Positions 2,738 to 12,860 of a stretch of DNA of 64,000 nt are shown piece by piece. Below the pieces are notes generated by a model that was not told the DNA's origin, searched no databases, and saw nothing but the letters and a program-made list of their open reading frames with translations. A program made the position numbers and the translations under genes. Positions within the stretch are counted from its first letter, which is position 1. Every line of letters begins with the position of its first letter. Source of the DNA: Salinicola acroporae (GTDB lineage Bacteria > Pseudomonadota > Gammaproteobacteria > Pseudomonadales > Halomonadaceae); the NCBI RefSeq assembly GCF_003206615.1, contig NZ_PZJW01000006.1:372001-436000 (forward strand), given 5' to 3'.

Positions 2738-3625
2738 ATGATTCGCAAGGCCGTACTGCCCGTCGCCGGATTCGGCACCCGCTGTTTACCCGCTTCCAAG
2801 GCGATCCCCAAAGAGATGATCACCATCGTCGACAAACCGGTGATTCAGTACGTGGTCACCGAGGCAGTCAAGGCGGGCATCAAGGAGATCGTCCTGGTCA
2901 CTCACTCCTCGAAGAGCGCCATCGAGAACCATTTCGACAAGCACTTCGAACTCGAGACCCAGCTCGAGGCCAAGGGCAAGAACGAACTGCTCGAAGAGCT
3001 TCGCAACATCATCCCGGACGACGTCAATATCATCAGCGTACGCCAGCCGGAGGCGCTGGGGTTGGGACACGCCATCCTGTGCGCCCGCCCGGTCATCGGC
3101 AATGACCCGTTCGCCGTGCTGTTGCCCGATGTGGTCATCGATGACGACGGCATGGCCAGTAACGATCTCACCGGCATGATCAAGGCATTCGACGAGACCG
3201 GCAAAGCCCAGATCATGGTCGAAACCGTTCCCAAGGAGCTGACGTACAAGTACGGCATCGTGGCTCTCGAGGGTGACGAGCCCGCCGCCGGCAAGAGCGC
3301 GCCGCTGACCGGCATGGTCGAGAAGCCGAAGGTCGAGGAGGCACCCTCCACGCTGGCCGTGATTGGCCGCTACCTGCTGCCGGGCGAGATCTTTCCGATC
3401 CTGGCCGAGACACCCCCGGGTGCGGGTAACGAGATTCAACTGACCGATGCCATCGAGACCCTGCGCAAGAACAGCGGTGCGGCGGCCTATCGCATGCAGG
3501 GCCAGACCTACGACTGCGGCAGCCAGCTCGGCTACCTCGAAGCGACCCTGGCGCTGGGGCGGAAACATCCGACCCTCGGTGAGGGCTTCCGTCAGTTGAT
3601 CCAGCAATACGCGGCCGAGGACTAA
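2738..3625 (+). CDS. galU: UTP--glucose-1-phosphate uridylyltransferase GalU
   Basis: GalU makes UDP-glucose from UTP and glucose 1-phosphate in the cytoplasm and feeds envelope polysaccharide and osmoadaptation pathways. The 295-residue sequence starts with the nucleotidyltransferase signature AVLPVAGFGTRCLPASKAIPKEM (quoted in part: GFGTRCLPASK), then DKPVIQYVV, the metal-binding LLPDVVIDDD region and the VEKPKVEEAPS sugar-nucleotide loop. All are standard for bacterial GalU of about 290-300 residues. A purine-rich stretch (AGGAAGGGAAGGACC) precedes the ATG. The downstream UDP-glucose dehydrogenase homologue begins 4 bp after the stop, so the two form an operon. Confidence 0.95.
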   Translation: MIRKAVLPVAGFGTRCLPASKAIPKEMITIVDKPVIQYVVTEAVKAGIKEIVLVTHSSKSAIENHFDKHFELETQLEAKGKNELLEELRNIIPDDVNIISVRQPEALGLGHAILCARPVIGNDPFAVLLPDVVIDDDGMASNDLTGMIKAFDETGKAQIMVETVPKELTYKYGIVALEGDEPAAGKSAPLTGMVEKPKVEEAPSTLAVIGRYLLPGEIFPILAETPPGAGNEIQLTDAIETLRKNSGAAAYRMQGQTYDCGSQLGYLEATLALGRKHPTLGEGFRQLIQQYAAED

Positions 3626-3629
3626 GTCG

Positions 3630-4910
3630 ATGCGCGTGGTCGTACATGGTAGCGAACTGGCCGCGGCAACCGCCGCCGCCGCATTGTGCTCGGTTGGGCA
3701 TCAGGTTACCTGGATGCCACATGCCGAATTTCGCTGGGACAGCCTGGCGCGTGCCGACTGGCTGATCAGCGAGCCCGGACTGAAGGACCAGATTCTGGTG
3801 GGCGAGGAGTCCGGCCAGTTGGCGATCGTGGACGAGGTGCCGGCGGACGCCGACGCCGACGTCCATTGGCTGGCACTCTCCCCGGATCAACGCGAGTCGG
3901 CGGAAAGCTACGTCCGGCAGGTGCCGGGGCGCCAGAGCACACCTCTGATCATCGTCAACAACTCCACGTTCCCGGTAGGACAAACGGAGAAACTCGAAGC
4001 ATTACTGGGTCACGCCGGCCAAGTGGCCGTGGCGCTGCCCGACCGCATCGAGGAGGGGCGTGCCTGGGAAACGTTCACCCGACCCGCGCACTGGCTGCTG
4101 GGGAGCGAGGACGAGTGGGGAACCCAGCAGATTCGCGAGCTGCTGCGAGCCTTCAATCGGCGCCACGAGGTGTTCCAATTGATGCCCCGGCGTGCCGCCG
4201 AACTGACCAAGCTGGCCATCAACGGCATGCTGGCGACGCGGATCAGCTTCATGAACGAGCTGGCAGGCCTTGCCGACTCGCTCGCCGTGGACGTGGAGTA
4301 TGTGCGCCAGGGGATGGGGGCCGATACCCGCATCGGCTTCGAATATCTCTATCCCGGCTGTGGCTTCGGCGGCCCCAACTTTTCGCGGGACCTGATGCGT
4401 CTGGCCGACGTCCAGCACTCGACCGGGCGGGAATCCCATCTGCTGGAGCACGTCCTCGACATCAACGAGAGCAAGAAAGAGACGCTGTTCCGCAAGCTCT
4501 GGAACCACTTCAAGGGGGAACTGGAAGGCCGCACCGTGGCCATCTGGGGCGCCGCCTTCAAACCGGGAACGGCGCGGATCGATCATGCGCCGGTCCTGAC
4601 GCTGCTGGAAGCGCTGTGGGCGCAGGGCGTCACGGTCAAGGTCCACGATCCGGCGGCACTGCATGCGCTGGGTGAACTCTATCCCGACCATCCGCAACTG
4701 ATCTTGTGCGAGGGCGATTTCTACAGCGCTTGCGAGGATGCAGATGCCCTGATGCTGGTGACGGAGTGGAAGTGCTACTGGAATCCGGACTGGCGTCGGC
4801 TGCTGCAATCGCTGAAGACGCCGCTGATCCTGGATGGCCGCAACATCTACGACCCCGCTTACGTGGCTTCCCGCGGACTGGTCTATCGCGGGATCGGCCG
4901 CCGCGCCTAG
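3630..4910 (+). CDS. UDP-glucose 6-dehydrogenase homologue lacking catalytic Cys
   Basis: The 426-residue protein has the overall UDP-glucose/GDP-mannose dehydrogenase layout: an N-terminal nucleotide-binding half, a central helix with AAELTKLAINGMLATRISFMNELA-like sequence (Lys194 and Asn198 kept) and a C-terminal UDP-binding domain (AIWGAAFKPGTARIDHAP). The hallmark GGSCFPKD motif is replaced by GGPNFSRD at 247-254, so the catalytic cysteine is Asn250 and the lysine is Arg253. The N-terminal GxGYVG NAD loop is also absent (VVVHGSELAAATAAA). Cys244, six residues upstream, is unlikely to substitute. It is cotranscribed with galU. It may be a pseudo-enzyme or have another role; oxidation of UDP-glucose is doubtful. 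Confidence 0.8.
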   Translation: MRVVVHGSELAAATAAAALCSVGHQVTWMPHAEFRWDSLARADWLISEPGLKDQILVGEESGQLAIVDEVPADADADVHWLALSPDQRESAESYVRQVPGRQSTPLIIVNNSTFPVGQTEKLEALLGHAGQVAVALPDRIEEGRAWETFTRPAHWLLGSEDEWGTQQIRELLRAFNRRHEVFQLMPRRAAELTKLAINGMLATRISFMNELAGLADSLAVDVEYVRQGMGADTRIGFEYLYPGCGFGGPNFSRDLMRLADVQHSTGRESHLLEHVLDINESKKETLFRKLWNHFKGELEGRTVAIWGAAFKPGTARIDHAPVLTLLEALWAQGVTVKVHDPAALHALGELYPDHPQLILCEGDFYSACEDADALMLVTEWKCYWNPDWRRLLQSLKTPLILDGRNIYDPAYVASRGLVYRGIGRRA

Positions 4911-4920
4911 TCCCGCCTCC

Positions 4921-4967
4921 GGCGAGCGCCTGAATCCTGGCCCGTGGCCGGGGTTTAGACGCTCGCC
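4921..4967. terminator. Long hairpin between convergent genes
   Basis: Bases 4921-4942 pair with 4946-4967 around a 3-base CGT loop. The outer GGCGAGCG/CGCTCGCC arm is perfect, and most of the few internal mismatches are G-U type. There is no clear T-run. It lies just after the galU operon and overlaps the stop codon of the opposite-strand SOD-like gene, so a bidirectional terminator or RNA-stabilising role is likely. Confidence 0.5.
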
Positions 4968-5548
4968 TCGATGTTGAGTTGCGCGTATTCCCAGTTCAAG
5001 TGGGGCCACAACGCATCGAAATATTCGCCTCGGCGTTGAGGGTAATCGATTCGGTAGGCGTCCTCGTTCAGGGCAATGGCCAGCAGCGGTGCCACTTCGG
5101 GGGGGCGCGCTCCAGTGGGCGAATGCCGCAGTTCCAGCTTGCCGTCGGCATCGACCGCCAGCCAGGACCACCCCTCCGAGACGTCTTGAATGCTGGCCCG
5201 CCATCGATGTTGCAGCGCCCCGGGACCGCCAAAAGCCTGATCGATTCTTCGCGCCAGGCCGTCGGGCATCGCGACGCCGACGCCACTGAGTCCGTGCCAG
5301 AAGAACACCAGATTCCAGGCCTCCTGCGCGGATCGGCGAATCTCGTCCTCGTCGTGTTCGGCAAGGCTTGCTAAAGAGCGCCCGGGTAGCCTTGGCTCTC
5401 GAGCGTTGAGTGCATCGATATGGCGGCGATGGTAATGGCTATAGAGCAGGTCGACTTGAGCCCGTGATACCTCGGGCTCCAGCGAATGGCGCTCGAATGG
5501 CAGGGCGGGCAACTCGAATCGGGTAGCAAATTCAGGCATCTGGCTCAT
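4955..5548 (-). CDS. Fe/Mn superoxide dismutase-like protein without metal ligands
   Basis: Almost the whole Fe/Mn-SOD framework is visible across 197 residues: FELPALPFERHSLEPE at the start, RSAQEAWNLVFFWHGL in the middle, then WSWLAVDADGKLEL, PLLAIALNEDAYRIDY and HLNWEYA at the end. Aligned with FeSOD, all four metal ligands are changed: the His of EPHIS is Glu26, the His of WNH is Leu80, and the Asp and His of DVWEHAY are Ala159 and Asp163. The equivalent of the Fe-type Gln69 (Gln75) remains. It therefore cannot bind iron or manganese in the usual way and should not be annotated as an active SOD. Metal-less SOD-fold proteins are known elsewhere, such as mitochondrial ribosomal proteins. 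Its function here is unknown. Confidence 0.85.
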   Translation of the reverse strand: MSQMPEFATRFELPALPFERHSLEPEVSRAQVDLLYSHYHRRHIDALNAREPRLPGRSLASLAEHDEDEIRRSAQEAWNLVFFWHGLSGVGVAMPDGLARRIDQAFGGPGALQHRWRASIQDVSEGWSWLAVDADGKLELRHSPTGARPPEVAPLLAIALNEDAYRIDYPQRRGEYFDALWPHLNWEYAQLNIEASV

Positions 5549-5867
5549 CGACGAGTGTGGTTGGAGAGGGCTACATTACGGCCCATCGGAAGCGGGCATG
5601 CTACCGCGATCGCGCCCGCCATCGCCAACTCGGCGACGACGGGCCTTCAGTGTTCAGTATTGCGCGAGCCGGCTGCGACCAAGTATGGGCTTTGCACCGG
5701 CTTTCACGTAACGTGATCCCGTCAGCCGCTCGAGCCCCTTTTCGTGGCATAGTGGCATCCATGGCCGAGGCGTCGGAACCGACTTCCGGGCTCCAGGACC
5801 TGGAGGTCGAGCGCAGTTCCTGTGTTACGCACCATCCGCATCACTATTGGCAAGGTATACGACGGCA
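5549..5867. other. Intergenic stretch, no gene seen
   Basis: About 320 bp separate the SOD-like gene from the coiled-coil gene. No reading frame here has a family signature or a convincing ribosome-binding site. It must carry divergent promoters. The only regular structure noticed is a 13-bp palindrome at 5704-5716. Confidence 0.6.
5704..5716. promoter_or_regulatory. 13-bp palindrome TCACGT-A-ACGTGA
   Basis: This is a perfect inverted repeat with a one-base centre, lying between the divergent SOD-like and coiled-coil genes. It could be an operator, but a repeat this short in a GC-rich genome may be chance. No regulator was matched to it. Confidence 0.25.
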
Positions 5868-6872
5868 ATGCCATCACAATCGGACGAGCATCGCGCATCC
5901 CCAACCATCGTTCCTGATCGAGACGACATGACGACACGCCGCTCGAGAGCGGTTCATTATCAAGGTTCTCCCGGACGCGGCCGCGCCCGGGTATGGCCAT
6001 TGTGGTTTCTCATTCTGCTGCTCATTGCCGGCGCGCTCGCGGGAGGCTGGCTGCTCTGGCAGCGGCTGGACGTGCAGCACGCCCAGATCGACCGGCTCAA
6101 CCAGCGTCTGGATGCGACCGGTTCGACCCTGGACGCTTCCGGAGAAAGCTTGAGGGCCGAGTTCGATCGCCTACGTGACCAGTTGGAGGCCACGCGAGCG
6201 GCGGTGGGGAGCCTGGAGACGCGGGTGGCGGATTCCCGGTCGAACGACCAGACGACTCAGCAGATCCAGAAACTGCAGGACACCGATCAGAATCTCCAGG
6301 GATTGGTCGACACGCTGCGATCCTCGCTCGACGCCCTCGAGAGCACCGGCAAGGATGAGCGCGGCGCGCTGGCTGCCAAGCTGGCCTCGCTCGAGAGTGG
6401 CCAGGATCAGCAGGGAGGTCGCCTCGATTCGATGTCCAACTCGCTCGATCAGCAGCAGCAGGAGCGCCAGGCACTATCGAAGCAACTCACCACCTCGCTC
6501 GAGGAGTTGCGTCAGTCCCAACAGGCGCTCTCTCGCCAGGTCGAAGGAAACGACTCGACTGACCTGGGTGCCGCCATCGCGAATCTCGAATCCCGGGTCG
6601 AGACGCTTGCCCAGCAGGACGTGCCATCGACGGACGCCGTGAATCAGCTTCGTAGCTCGGTGACGGAACTTCGCCAGGGCCAGACGGCTCTCAATGCCGG
6701 TCTCGAATCGCTGCAGTCGCGGGTCAATGCGCTGCCAACGGGGGCGAGTGCGAACCAGATTCGCGAACTCAAGGAACGGCTGGGGTCCCTCGAGGCCAGC
6801 CGTTCGCAACTGACGAGCCGCGTGGCCTCGTTGATCACGGACGTTTCCAACCTGCAGCGCGGCGGAGGTTGA
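5868..6872 (+). CDS. Membrane-anchored coiled-coil protein upstream of tamAB
   Basis: The product (334 residues from ATG 5868; 314 from ATG 5928) has a basic cytoplasmic head, one strong transmembrane segment (WPLWFLILLLIAGALAGGWLLW) and then about 270 residues of near-continuous heptads rich in Leu, Gln, Ser, Asp and Arg. It is therefore an inner-membrane protein with a long periplasmic coiled coil. Its stop lies 4 bp before tamA, so the three genes probably form an operon and the product may work with the TamA-TamB assembly module. I recognise no named family. The start is uncertain: a TTG at 5847 and ATGs at 5868 and 5928 are all in frame, and 5868 has CAAGG upstream. Confidence 0.75.
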   Translation: MPSQSDEHRASPTIVPDRDDMTTRRSRAVHYQGSPGRGRARVWPLWFLILLLIAGALAGGWLLWQRLDVQHAQIDRLNQRLDATGSTLDASGESLRAEFDRLRDQLEATRAAVGSLETRVADSRSNDQTTQQIQKLQDTDQNLQGLVDTLRSSLDALESTGKDERGALAAKLASLESGQDQQGGRLDSMSNSLDQQQQERQALSKQLTTSLEELRQSQQALSRQVEGNDSTDLGAAIANLESRVETLAQQDVPSTDAVNQLRSSVTELRQGQTALNAGLESLQSRVNALPTGASANQIRELKERLGSLEASRSQLTSRVASLITDVSNLQRGGG

Positions 6873-6876
6873 TCTC

Positions 6877-8718
6877 ATGCGGCAAGTCAAGGTCCTACGG
6901 ATGGGACTCATTTGTCTGGCGCTGCCCGCCGCGGGCCATGCCTGGGCACTCGGTGTAACGGTCAAGGGATTGAGCGGACCTCCGGCGGAGAATGTGGTCA
7001 ACATCCTGTCCGAGCTCGAGCCCGACAGCCAGGCGACCCGGGCACGTCTGGACGGGGTGGTGAGGAATCGTGCCGAGCAGGCGCTACAGGCCTTTGGCTA
7101 CTACAACGCCAAGCTGGCCACCCATTACCCCGACGCGGACAATCGGCGGGTCGTGATCGATGTCGAGCCGGGCGAGCGTACCAGGATCACCCAGGTCGAC
7201 GTTTCGCTGGAGGGCGACGCCAGGCAGGATGAGGCTTTCGAGAAGGTGATGCGCTCGAACCCGCTCAAGGTCGGCGACCCGCTACTGCATTCTCGTTACG
7301 ACGGTTTCAAGAGCAAGATGTCGACCCTGGCGCTGGAACGCGGCTACTTCAACTCCCGTTTCCGTCAACAACGGATCGAGGTTCGGCCTTGGGAGGAGAG
7401 TGCCCGCATTTTTCTCGATCTCGATAGTGGCCCGCGCTATCGGTTCGGACACGTGCACTTCCAAGGGAGCCAGATCGAACCGCACCGGCTGCAAAACATG
7501 GTTCCCTTCGAGCCTGGCGATCCGTATCTCGCGGGCGACCTCGCCACGCTCAACCAGAACCTCGGCCAGACCGACTGGTTTGCCGGCGTAGCGGTGCGCC
7601 CAAGAGTGAACGAGGAGGCCGCATCCACGGCCCCCAGCCAGTGGTGGAGCGAGTCGACCGGGCGCGACACCACCGCCGACCCGTCCAGCGTGCTCGGCGG
7701 CCCGGGACTAAGCATGGCTCGCGAGTTGACCGATAGCCGGCCCACCGTAGTACCTGTCGATATCGAGCTGACCCCGGCCGACCGCCATCAGTTCGAGGTC
7801 GGTGTCGGCTACGCCACCGACGTGGGTCCGCGGACCCAGTTCTCCTGGACCATGCCCTGGCTCAATCGCTATGGGCACAGCCTGACCAACTCGCTCTATC
7901 TCTCGGCCCCGGAGCAGCGCTTTTCGGGGGAGTACAGGATCCCGCTGGAGAACCCGCTGAGAGACAGCTACCGGGTTCGCTACGGCCTGCAGAATGTCGA
8001 TAACGAGGACACCAAGAGTTTCGAGAGCTCGGTGCAGTTGGCTCGCCACTGGGAGTTTTCCAACGGCTGGATCCAGGATCTCTACTGGCAGACCACCTAC
8101 GAGGATTTCACCCAGGCCGATCAGGACGACGCGGTGCTGCTGCTCTATCCCGGCATCAGCTGGTCGCGAACGCGCAAACGCAACCCGATCTTCCCGAGCT
8201 GGGGCGACAAGCAGGAACTCACCCTGGAATGGTCCGACCCTTCGTGGGGATCGGATGCCCGCTTCGTGCGTACCACCTTCAACTCCCAGTGGGTGCGGAT
8301 GCTCGGCAGCGAGAACCGCTTCGTCGGGCGTATCGGTGGTGGTGCCATGGCGACCAACACCTTCGACAAGATCCCTCCCTCGCTGCGCTTCTTCGCCGGT
8401 GGCGATCAGAGCATACGCGGCTACTCCTACGAGAGCCTGTCACCGGAAAACGACGATGGCGAGCTGCTTGGCGGGCAGCACATGCTGACCAGCAGCATCG
8501 AGTATCAACGCCATCTGACCGGCAATTTCTGGAGCGCGACCTTCGTCGACACCGGCAACGCCTTCGACGAGTGGTGGCCCGATGAACTCAAGACCGGCGC
8601 CGGCGTCGGCGTGCGCTGGATTTCACCCGTTGGGCCGATCCGTTTCGATATCGCCCACCCGTTTGACGACGAGGAGGACTCTTGGCGTCTTCATTTCTCC
8701 ATCGGACCGGAGTTCTGA
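6877..8718 (+). CDS. tamA: TamA, outer-membrane assembly factor (Omp85 family)
   Basis: TamA is the outer-membrane barrel of the translocation and assembly module. The 613-residue sequence begins with a signal peptide (MRQVKVLRMGLICLALPAAGHAWA, hydrophobic core 7-20), followed by POTRA-like domains (VVIDVEPGERTRI; GPRYRFGHVHFQG) and a C-terminal Omp85 barrel from about residue 300. The barrel contains FFAGGDQSIRGYSYESLSP, the conserved RGY lid motif, and ends in LHFSIGPEF with a terminal Phe as expected for outer-membrane insertion. GGAGG precedes the ATG. The end of tamA overlaps the tamB start by 37 bp and encodes its ribosome-binding site. Confidence 0.93.
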   Translation: MRQVKVLRMGLICLALPAAGHAWALGVTVKGLSGPPAENVVNILSELEPDSQATRARLDGVVRNRAEQALQAFGYYNAKLATHYPDADNRRVVIDVEPGERTRITQVDVSLEGDARQDEAFEKVMRSNPLKVGDPLLHSRYDGFKSKMSTLALERGYFNSRFRQQRIEVRPWEESARIFLDLDSGPRYRFGHVHFQGSQIEPHRLQNMVPFEPGDPYLAGDLATLNQNLGQTDWFAGVAVRPRVNEEAASTAPSQWWSESTGRDTTADPSSVLGGPGLSMARELTDSRPTVVPVDIELTPADRHQFEVGVGYATDVGPRTQFSWTMPWLNRYGHSLTNSLYLSAPEQRFSGEYRIPLENPLRDSYRVRYGLQNVDNEDTKSFESSVQLARHWEFSNGWIQDLYWQTTYEDFTQADQDDAVLLLYPGISWSRTRKRNPIFPSWGDKQELTLEWSDPSWGSDARFVRTTFNSQWVRMLGSENRFVGRIGGGAMATNTFDKIPPSLRFFAGGDQSIRGYSYESLSPENDDGELLGGQHMLTSSIEYQRHLTGNFWSATFVDTGNAFDEWWPDELKTGAGVGVRWISPVGPIRFDIAHPFDDEEDSWRLHFSIGPEF

Positions 8719-11700
8719 TTCGGCTACTGCTGTTCCTGATCCTGTGGCTGCTGGGTCTGGTTCTGACGCTGGCCGGGCTGGGATTGTCCCCCTGGGGTAG
8801 CCAATGGCTGTTCGAGCAGGCCCAGTCTCGAGGCTGGGTCGAGGCACAACATTTCGAAGGTGCGCCGCTCGATGAGCTGACCATCGAAGGTCTGCGCCTG
8901 TCTGCCGGCGCACTGGACCTGTCCGTGGATCATTTCCACCTGGCCTGGGCGGATGACTGCCTGCTCAAGGGGCGGGTCTGCCTGGATGATCTTGCGATCA
9001 CGGGGGCGCGAATTCGACTGGACGAGAGCGCATCGCAGCCGCCCCCCGAGCCGGAAGCGGCCGAAGGGGGTGGCATGCCGTCGATCTCCGTGCCGCTGCC
9101 CATCGAGATTCGCCAGGTGCGCCTGGACGATGTCGGCATTCAGCTCGCCGACGGTACCAACGTGCACTGGGATCATTTCCAGACCGGTGCCGAGATGGCC
9201 GGCAATCACCTGAAACTGCTGCCAACGACCCTGGAGCGGACTCGCATTGCACTTCCCGAGACGCCGGGCCGGGCGCTGGCAATGCCCGACCTGGGCAGCG
9301 GCGTCTTGAGCCCGGATGCCATCGATCTGTCGGTCGCCATCAACACGGCCAATGGCGAGGGCGGCAATGACGGCAAGGCCAAGGTCTCCACGCCGCTGAC
9401 GGATGCCGCAGCGCTGGCCGCCGTCCCCGATACCCCGGTCGCCATCGCGCTGACGCCAATGACCCTGGCGGCGGCGGCCAACGTCGCCGACGGCAGTGCC
9501 GAGCGGACCGATGCGCGGGTCCAGCGTATCGAGCAGAGTCTCGGGGAGATCCGGGATCGGTTGCCCGATATCCAGCTGCCGCTGGAGGTCGAGATACCGG
9601 ATCTGACGGTCAGCGACCTGCGGCTCGAAGGGCCGAGCCCGCAGCGCCTCGACCGGTTGACGCTGTCGGCCTCCGCGGTCGACCGCCGGATCGAGATTCG
9701 CCGGTTGATGGTGGAGGCGCCCGATGGCCACGCCGAACTCACCGCCAGTGCCGAGCTACAGGGGGACGTTCCGCTCTCGCTGTCGCTGCAGGGGCGCGTT
9801 ACCCGAGCACCGGTCTATGGCCAGACACTATCGCTTGACGCCAACGGTACCCTGGCCGACCTGGATATCCGGCTACGCACGGCCGGCAACGCCGAGGCGG
9901 CGGTCGATGGGCGACTCCAGGCGTTCGCGCCAGGGTTGCCGTTTTCGGTGGACGTCAACGCCGGGCGGCTGCGCTGGCCGTTGGCCGCGCGGCCTTTCGC
10001 GCCGCTCACCGACGTGGAAGGCGGGCTCGATGAGGTCGCGATCCTGAGTGCCCGCGAGCTGCACGGCATCAAGGAGATCGAGCAGCCCCCCGCGCAGTAC
10101 CAGCTTGACCACCTGACGCTGGCTGTCGAGGGCCGACTCGACGACTACCGCGCCAGCGTCGATCTCGCTGGTCAGGGCCAGGGGCTGCCCCCGGTGACAC
10201 TAAGTGTCGCCGGCGAAGGGGACCTCGATCACTTCCGCTGGCAACCGATGCGGTTGGCAGCCGAGGGCGGCCAGCTCAACAGCCAGGGCACGTTACGCTG
10301 GACCCCGGCTCTCTCGGCCAGCGTGAACCTGGATTTCAAGCAGCTTCCGCTGGAGGCGTTCACCCAGGCCGTGACGGGGCAATTGAACGGCCAGGCCCGT
10401 GCGGCCTTCGCCATGCGCGACGACGGCGGCTGGCAGCTATCGGTGCCGCAACTGGCGATCGATGGCCGGCTGCAGCAGCGCGCACTCAAGCTGAATGCGC
10501 GCCTCGACGGCAACAGTGATAACCAGTGGAACATCCGGGCACTCGACTTTCGCCAGGGTGACAATCGCGTGACCGCCAGCGGTCGCGTCGACGATCATCT
10601 CGCGATCGATGGCCGGATCGATGCGCCGGCGTTGGGCACGATTTTGCCGGACCTCTCGGGCGCGCTGCGCGGCCAGTTCCAAGGGCGCGGCACGCTGGCG
10701 AGGCCGCAGATCGCGGTCGACCTGCAAGGCAGCAATGTGGGATACGCGGAGAACCGTCTCGAGCAGTTGGTGCTGAAGGCCAACTCCGCCGGTACGCAGG
10801 ACCCGCAGTTCGACGTCAACTTGAACGCCAGCGGCGTCCAGGCCGGCGGACAGCAACTTCGGAGCGTCGATCTGGACCTCCAGGGGCGACTGTCGCGACA
10901 TCAACTGGCACTCGACGTCAGTGGCGGCGAGGGCCTGCCGGTCTCGCAGGCCTCGGTGAGATTGCAGGGCGGCCTGGACAGCGCGTTCCAGAACTATCGG
11001 GGGGCATTCTCCCGGCTCTCGGCATCGACCGACTACGGCGACATCGCCCTGCGCGACTCGCTGGACTTCAGCGCCAACCTGACCAACGCCAGTGCGACGA
11101 TCTCGCCGTTCTGTCTCGATCGCCACCAGGGCGGCGCGCTCTGCCTGACCGAGCGCATGAACGCGTCGGCCGCGCAGGGACGCGCTGCGCTCTCGATCGA
11201 TGACGTCCCGATGGCGCTGCTCGACGATTTCATGCCGAGCGGGTGGCAAGTCGATGGCCAGACCGGCGGTAACGTGGTTGCCAGCTGGTCACGCGGCGGT
11301 CAGGCCTGGGCCGCCACGGCCGATATCGATAGCCGCATCGATGTCAGCGGTGTCGACGCGAGGGGGGCGCCCTGGCAGGTGCCGGCGGCGACGATCTCCC
11401 TGTCACTGGACGCCGACCAGCAGCGCGCCCAGACGCAACTCGACCTTCAGTTGGAGGATGCCGGAAAGGTGCAGCTGCAGGCCCGGATCGACGACCCGGC
11501 GGGGCAAGGCAACCTGCAGGGGCGCCTGCAGATGAGCGATCTTCGTTTCAGCCCCTATCGGCCACTGATATCCGGGATCGACCAGTTGGAAGGTGCCATC
11601 AATGGCGACGTTTCGCTGGGAGGTAAGGTGGCGATGCCGGCCTTGAATGGCAACGTCACGATCGACGGCGTCAGGGTCAGGGGGGGTGTGTCTCCGGTGG

Positions 11701-12860
11701 CGGTGACCGATGGCCAACTGACGCTGGCACTGCAGGGCCAGTCATCGACACTGCAGGGGTTCGTCCAGAGTGAGGATGGTCGGCTTGACCTGACCGGGGA
11801 TGCCAACTGGCAGCAGCCCGACGAGTGGAGAGCCAATGTCGATATCGATGGCACCCAGGCCCCGCTCATGGTCGCGATGCCGGCCTACGGGCGTCTGCGG
11901 ATAGCGCCGGACCTGCAGATCCGGGCGATGCCGCAGCGCCTGCAGGTCCGGGGCGACGTGAGTGTGCCTTGGGCCCGCCTGGAGATTGGCCAGATTCCCT
12001 CGTCCGCCCAGGCGCCCAGCAGCGACACCGTCGTGATTACCGAAGAGGAGGACCGCCAGCAGCAGGCTGCCGCCGCCGCTCGTCAGAACGACGAGGGCGC
12101 CGGCACCGCCCAGGCCCTGGCCGATGCAGGGATGCAGCTCGACGTTCGCGTCAATCTGCACCTGGGGCCCGACATGAAGCTGGAGGCCTATGGGCTGGAA
12201 GCCGGCCTGCGGGGCGAACTTCAGGTTCGCCAGGGCACCGGCCCGGTTCAATTGTATGGCGACGTGAACCTGGTCGATGGCACCTACACCTCCTTCGGCC
12301 AGGATCTCATCATCCGGCAGGGGCAGGTGCTGTTCAGCGGACCGGCGTCGCAGCCCAGCCTGCAGTTCGAAGCCATTCGCAACCCGGACACCACCGAAGA
12401 CGATGTGATCGCGGGCTTGCGGGTGACGGGCTCCGCTTCCGCGCCGCGCCTGACGATCTTCTCCGAGCCGGCGATGACCGAGAGTCGGGCGCTCTCCTAC
12501 ATCTTGAGAGGCCGGGCACCCGAGGACTCGGGTAGTGGAGACGACGCCCTGACCTCGGCGCTGATCGGACTCTCGCTCTCGCAGACCGGCAGCGCGGTGG
12601 GCCAGGTAGGCCAGGCGTTCGGCGTTCAGGACCTGAGCCTCGAAGCCTCGGGATCGGGCGATGACAGCCAGGTCGTGGTCAGCGGCTACGTCTTCGACGA
12701 CTTGAAGGTAAGCTATGGTGTCGGCATATTCTCTCCCATTGCCGAGCTGACCCTGCGTTACCGCCTGATCCAGAATCTGTACCTGCAGGCCGTTTCCGGG
12801 GCGGCGCAGGCCGTCGATCTGATCTACACCTTTAGCCTGGGTCGCGCCAACAGCCGCTGA
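8682..12860 (+). CDS. tamB: TamB, translocation and assembly module inner-membrane component
   Basis: TamB is a very long periplasm-spanning protein that partners TamA and is linked to outer-membrane protein assembly and lipid transport. The 1392-residue product has an N-terminal membrane anchor ([22 protein letters not shown]), a long AsmA-like beta-repeat body and the DUF490 C-terminus ([41 protein letters not shown]). A TTG at 8682 is the likely start: it follows GAGGAGGA at 8671-8678 inside tamA and places the anchor correctly, and no ATG lies nearby. The tamA-tamB overlap suggests coupled translation. The length is close to the E. coli protein (about 1260) with extra repeat material. Confidence 0.93.

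Follow-up and report, generated by a model that had tools for sequence, protein, structure and literature searches.

The question raised by this locus is what has become of a protein that is recognizably an iron superoxide dismutase (FeSOD) and has lost all four metal ligands. The gene lies in the window, that is, the whole stretch of 64,000 nucleotides that was analysed:

4955..5548, minus strand: ligand-less SodB orthologue (pseudo-SOD), 197 amino acids, characterized by Pfam, FeSOD structures, alignment and dN/dS

In the following, Salinicola refers to genus group g1 of the family Halomonadaceae, for which 18 genomes were searched (G000 and 17 others). The frame is open, and the 197-residue protein matches Pfam Sod_Fe_N with 36.3 bits (cut-off 27) and Sod_Fe_C with 54.7 bits (cut-off 20.9). 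Solved FeSODs are matched over residues 10–194, with E values of 7e-27 to 1e-26, and a profile-to-profile alignment of the 18 Salinicola copies with nine ligand-bearing SodB proteins covers 191 columns at 99.96% probability. The claim of an earlier, sequence-only reading that the protein aligns clearly to FeSOD along its full length is thus borne out, and the fold is probably intact as well, as that reading proposed, judging from its signature in the sequence profiles. Both Pfam domains were matched in 18/18 Salinicola members, which makes them Fe/Mn SOD homologues. That automatic pipelines would call the gene sodB, on the other hand, was not borne out: with NCBIfam, the protein reaches at most 102.5 bits for an FeSOD equivalog whose cut-off is 348, which an ordinary SodB of the family (321.2 bits) likewise misses. 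The Pfam domains would give the label Fe/Mn SOD.

The origin of the gene can be read from its surroundings, which consist of the following genes:

2738..3625, plus strand: galU-type nucleotidyltransferase, a conserved neighbour
3630..4910, plus strand: ugd-type UDP-glucose dehydrogenase, a conserved neighbour and the gene on which the neighbour-gene tree is built
5928..6872, plus strand: the divergent neighbour, here called coil, with a start chosen by us (the ORF list begins at 5847)
6877..8718, plus strand: tamA (Omp85 with TamA POTRA domain)
8682..12860, plus strand: tamB

The name coil reflects weak coiled-coil-like Pfam matches, none of them over the cut-off. The other Salinicola loci, 17/17, share the order galU, ugd, SOD (reversed), coil, tamA, tamB. 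In the family's other genera 43 SOD loci were read, including five of SodA type (L131–L133, L152 and L153). The SOD gene is flanked by ugd and tamA in 26 of them, and all 26 keep the ligands. L142 has coil and tamA on a contig that ends before ugd, L154 has ugd on a contig that ends before tamA, and in the remaining 15 no ugd or tamA flank could be found. The four ligands are kept in 42 of the 43. The exception, L146 (genome G234, genus group g10), belongs to the 15; it is a SodB-type protein reading HHGN, with two of the four ligands lost and neither ugd nor tamA in the stretch fetched.

Since the window gene occupies the same locus as the ligand-bearing SodB of other genera, by descent it is a SodB that changed at its original position. 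A recent SodA duplicate was also considered and rejected, as the window protein is only 24–27% identical to Salinicola SodA and sits at the SodB locus. The flanking genes are the same beside active and ligand-less SOD and therefore name no new job; no binding partner was found, and no neighbour points to a definite pathway.

We now come to the metal site. The ligand columns are those of E. coli H26, H73, D156 and H160 (E. coli numbering, ec below), placed by MAFFT alignment, and the corresponding residues of the window protein are Leu35, Leu80, Ala159 and Asp163. Their codons, and that of one second-sphere position, are:

5444..5446, minus strand: Leu35, in the column of ligand His26; Leu in 18/18 Salinicola
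5309..5311, minus strand: Leu80, in the column of ligand His73; Leu in 14 and Met in 4 of 18 Salinicola
5072..5074, minus strand: Ala159, in the column of ligand Asp156; Ala, Thr, Ser or Pro in 18/18 Salinicola
5060..5062, minus strand: Asp163, in the column of ligand His160; Glu in 10 and Asp in 8 of 18 Salinicola
5051..5053, minus strand: Arg166, in the column of Tyr163; Arg in 17/18 Salinicola

All four ligands are thus replaced in 18/18 Salinicola, and the three His and one Asp of an active SodFM2/SodB are absent. This confirms the loss of all four ligands that the sequence-only reading had claimed, with Leu80, Ala159 and Asp163 correctly named. Its Glu26, however, is residue 26 by raw numbering only and aligns nine positions ahead of the H26 ligand column, where the equivalent is Leu35. 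The second sphere has changed too, with Tyr, His, Glu, Asn and Arg in the window protein for E. coli H30, Y34, Q69, W158 and Y163. The window protein has Glu in place of the N-terminal water-coordinating Gln at ec69, as do 14/18 Salinicola, the other 4 having Gln; some ligand-bearing SodB proteins of the family also carry Glu there, and this Gln is therefore not a strict SodB feature.

A register slip or a shifted site that hides the ligands was considered and rejected after inspection of four positions on either side of each column in the 18 Salinicola proteins. Within these limits His occurs only at ec29 (17/18) and ec30 (4/18), there is none near ec73, and only acids are found near ec156 and ec160. 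The His at ec29, the Asp or Glu at ec160 in all 18 proteins and the invariant H40 and H85 could be taken as remains of a rebuilt metal site with some redox activity kept, but since ec73 has no His in its neighbourhood and the old site offers no group of three or four ligands, we regard this as most improbable.

The same genomes contain a second SOD, of SodA type, which in G000 is located as follows:

G000 contig 23, 241831–242445: SodA-type gene

This gene is present in 18/18 Salinicola genomes, 94–100% identical and with the ligands intact. It has a C-terminal Gln and a Gly two positions before the Asp ligand; in a SodFM survey, a C-terminal Gln is tied to SodFM1/5 and the residue two before the Asp is given as a determinant of metal preference (PMC10172142). 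In our own reading the Gly would go with Mn preference. The 19 SodA-type copies from the 18 genomes all keep HHDH, while the SodB orthologues of these congeneric genomes show the loss in 18/18, and the loss is thus not due to chance. The sequence-only reading had asked whether phylogeny would reveal a stable ligand-less form with an active paralogue elsewhere in the genome, and this appears to be the situation, with 18/18 Salinicola ligand-less at the SodB locus and each having a ligand-bearing SodA-type gene.

The ligand-less gene is found in 18/18 Salinicola genomes, 48–100% identical and with no internal stop. A single-strain artefact or a sequencing error can thus be rejected, and the single-strain pseudogene that the sequence-only reading had named as the outcome that would overturn it was looked for and not found. 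In the search of the family the Salinicola copies score 297–345 bits and the best hit outside Salinicola 164 bits. With a Salinicola profile against 390 genomes of the order, nothing outside Salinicola exceeds 153 bits, and two Salinicola rows score 338 and 340; outside the family the ligand state is known only for hits taken into the MAFFT alignment. In one Salinicola copy only, L012 (G016), about 15 residues are inserted ahead of the strand at around E. coli position 133.

To quantify the constraint, omega was obtained by pairwise codon likelihood with our own GY94-type script and F3x4 frequencies. In ten Salinicola pairs, which share sequences and are not independent tests, omega is 0.094–0.286, and each pair rejects omega=1 (likelihood-ratio statistic 8.9 to 105), with dS between Salinicola congeners of up to about 2.5. 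Five pairs from other ligand-less lineages, described below, give 0.119–0.409 (statistic 4.0–64) and five ligand-bearing SodB pairs 0.028–0.098. The constraint is thus real, but weaker than on the enzyme.

It is unevenly spread, with the most conserved stretch in Salinicola being:

5405..5518, minus strand: residues 11–48, which we take from FeSOD structures to be the N-terminal loop plus the first helix

This stretch holds 24 of the 51 invariant Salinicola columns, and relative to active SodB the residues R20 H21 S22, R29 A30 Q31, D33 L34 L35, S37 and R41 are newly fixed in it. Constraint at the nucleotide level in this part is not supported, as the invariant residues use a mean of 2.8 codons versus 3.0 elsewhere (24 and 21 columns, respectively). 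Upstream of the gene, no Shine-Dalgarno match of at least 4 bases precedes any candidate start tried in 12/18 Salinicola genes, while such a match is absent in 11/136 active SodB genes and 0/17 other ligand-less genes; the regions concerned are 5549–5600 of the window and those upstream of the other Salinicola copies. Expression of the Salinicola pseudo-SOD may therefore be low.

In the family as a whole, 172 SodB-type genes were read, each from a different genome among the 275 searched. They are not a random sample: they comprise all 18 Salinicola, 28/30 re-searched genomes (the hits of the other two being SodA-type), 87/90 further genomes (no whole SodB was obtained from G142, G160 and G245) and some loci that had been fetched before. 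Five rows of SodA type were left out, as were genomes in which SodB had no match. In G245 (contig 1, 1909327–1909916) the SOD match comes in two overlapping pieces, and a frame break is possible. HHDH is kept in 136/172, while 36/172 have at least two ligands gone or, in one case, a broken frame. These 36 loss genes are the 18 of Salinicola, 17 of genus group g20 and one (G234) of g10. Counted where all four columns have letters, all four ligands are gone in 30 (18 Salinicola and 12 others), and the loss is partial in five (G234, G164, G122, G123 and G134). The frame-broken SodB is that of G147, a genome rated 76% complete; the frame is open in the other 35/36. In several of the non-Salinicola rows the region around 156–166 is partly deleted, and these columns are therefore less certain there. 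At 16 of the 17 non-Salinicola g20 loci ugd and coil lie beside the SOD gene, and at L175 the contig is too short on the ugd side.

Some ligand-bearing SodB proteins have eroded second spheres, namely L126 (G058), L151 (G101), L116 (G116), L214 (G118) and L244 (G120), with W158 replaced by His, Arg or Cys and Y163 by Ala or Cys, for example. These copies are possible intermediates towards ligand loss.

The number of losses was counted on a tree of the neighbouring ugd, which is assumed to follow the genome tree. It has 79 rows; G234 and G134 lack a usable ugd, and near-identical active rows were dropped. On this tree the ligand state needs 5 changes (5–5 in bootstraps), of which at least 4 are forced by well-supported branches. 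A single loss common to all ligand-less forms is rejected, with an AU p of 2e-55 for one clade, and the 16 non-Salinicola rows taken alone give 8e-8. On the SOD tree some of the ligand-less forms group together with support, and 3 changes are enough, 1 of them forced by starred branches; long-branch joins are flagged there, and the losses were therefore not counted on it. Ligand loss is thus recurrent, with five changes most parsimonious and four forced, plus that of G234 outside the tree.

A SodA-type gene is present in all 36 loss genomes and missing from 29/136 ligand-bearing ones (Fisher p 8e-4), or 30 with G227, which has one match (best E 3.9e-41) and belongs among the SodA-less genomes. 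As the test ignores shared ancestry and there are about six independent changes, the association of SodA presence with SodB ligand loss is only suggestive. With a SodA-type gene in all 36 loss genomes, the pseudo-SOD could be a regulatory subunit that forms mixed oligomers with SodA, tuning or storing it. The dimer-contact residues are changed or deleted, however, and the low identity to Salinicola SodA given above also speaks against this. Mixed SodA/SodM dimers are reported from Staphylococcus aureus (PMC13008324), and on balance we find a regulatory subunit quite improbable.

A third fate of the locus is seen in g10. In 12 genomes of this group, chosen for having a SodA-type protein as their only SOD match, SodB has been deleted at 12/12 loci (L282–L293): ugd and tamA are close together with no SOD match between them, and coil is matched between them in 11 of the 12. 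Some of these g10 stretches do contain weak SOD matches (E 7e-5 to 9e-3), none of which falls between ugd and tamA. At L293 (G026) the ugd match covers two frames, with the break close to its 3' end.

These deletions, the SodA-type gene in every loss genome, the omega raised relative to active SodB, the broken frame of G147 and the 12 Salinicola genes lacking a Shine-Dalgarno match are all consistent with slow decay, in which SodB, redundant with SodA, drifts to loss and what constraint is left merely keeps the product from being toxic or misfolding. Such a course is difficult to reconcile with 18/18 Salinicola frames being open at the dS values reached between congeners, with omega well under 1 in all ten Salinicola pairs and with newly fixed residues that are invariant across the genus, and we consider it unlikely.

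The explanation that we favour is that the Salinicola SodB orthologue was converted at its own locus to a metal-free, conserved pseudo-SOD that serves in binding or as a scaffold, and on the sequence evidence we consider this probable. The protein has the sequence hallmarks of a pseudoenzyme, the catalytic residues being gone and the frame kept under purifying selection. Of the retained non-dismutase role put forward in the sequence-only reading, the retention is well supported, by presence in 18/18 genomes, purifying selection and the SodA-type paralogue, while the role itself stays at the level of a proposal. The SodA enzyme would cover dismutation, leaving the SodB metal site free to go, and the SOD fold would be kept for a metal-independent job. 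The working surface of such a binding or scaffold protein would be the N-terminal loop and first helix, where the entrance to the old site lay. Residues 30, 159, 160 and 163 are presumably at the site entrance and dimer face of FeSOD, and the co-conserved acid at 160 (18/18 Salinicola) and Arg at 163 (17/18) may form a rebuilt dimer or subunit contact in place of the old one. This contact cannot be general, since the 160–163 segment is partly deleted in several other loss lineages.

Another option is that SodB always was a moonlighting protein with a metal-independent contact, which the loss of dismutation uncovers in several lineages. It overlaps with the favoured explanation, for which it would supply the origin. 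The roughly five separate changes on the ugd tree, four of them forced, together with an open frame in 35/36 loss genes, fit this idea, as do 31 positions that show the same conservation in active SodB, the Salinicola form and the other ligand-less forms, including FELPALP, W78, W84-H85 and N185-W186. These shared residues may, however, simply be fold positions, and g10 deletes the gene, which leaves an always moonlighting SodB rather doubtful. Extending the favoured pseudo-SOD explanation to the family, one can tentatively suggest that SodB has a second, metal-independent function and that several conversions to a metal-free or metal-impaired pseudo-SOD followed a takeover by SodA, the Salinicola form having been remodelled furthest and having gained a new binding surface above the former active-site entrance; this is possible, though we would not yet call it likely.

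It is useful to compare the window protein with known systems. With E. coli SodB/SodFM2 it shares full-length homology, both Pfam SOD domains and the SodB locus of the family (26/43), and it differs in that all four ligands and several second-sphere residues are replaced. The plant plastid protein PAP9/FSD2 is a SOD-like subunit that is matched by the window protein in the structure of a complex, which we take to be the plastid RNA polymerase; unlike the window protein, PAP9/FSD2 keeps its metal site. Bacillus YojM is a SodC-like bacterial SOD homologue without some of the metal ligands, but its Cu/Zn SOD fold is unrelated to the Fe/Mn SOD of the window protein. The mitoribosomal proteins mS42/mS43 (yeast Rsm26/Mrp1) are SOD-fold proteins without metal that have a structural role. 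They stabilise rRNA, according to passages that are silent on the SOD fold (PMC9892005; see also PMC7050145). These are eukaryotic ribosomal proteins, whereas nothing in the analysis points to ribosome binding by the window protein.

Among the matches listed in our literature search there was no paper on a ligand-less bacterial Fe/Mn SOD; subscription journals were thinly covered, and absence from print is not claimed. The SodFM survey of about 3,000 genomes describes the four metal ligands of the Fe/Mn SODs as universally conserved (PMC10172142), to which Salinicola and the other lineages stand in contrast. Here, an Fe/Mn SOD is kept without some or all of its ligands in one bacterial genus and several separate lineages, and one locus has three outcomes in related genera, namely active enzyme, pseudoenzyme and deletion. 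The family thus amounts to an experiment replicated by nature: it asks why an enzyme fold is retained after its chemistry has become redundant, and it is open to testing in culturable bacteria.
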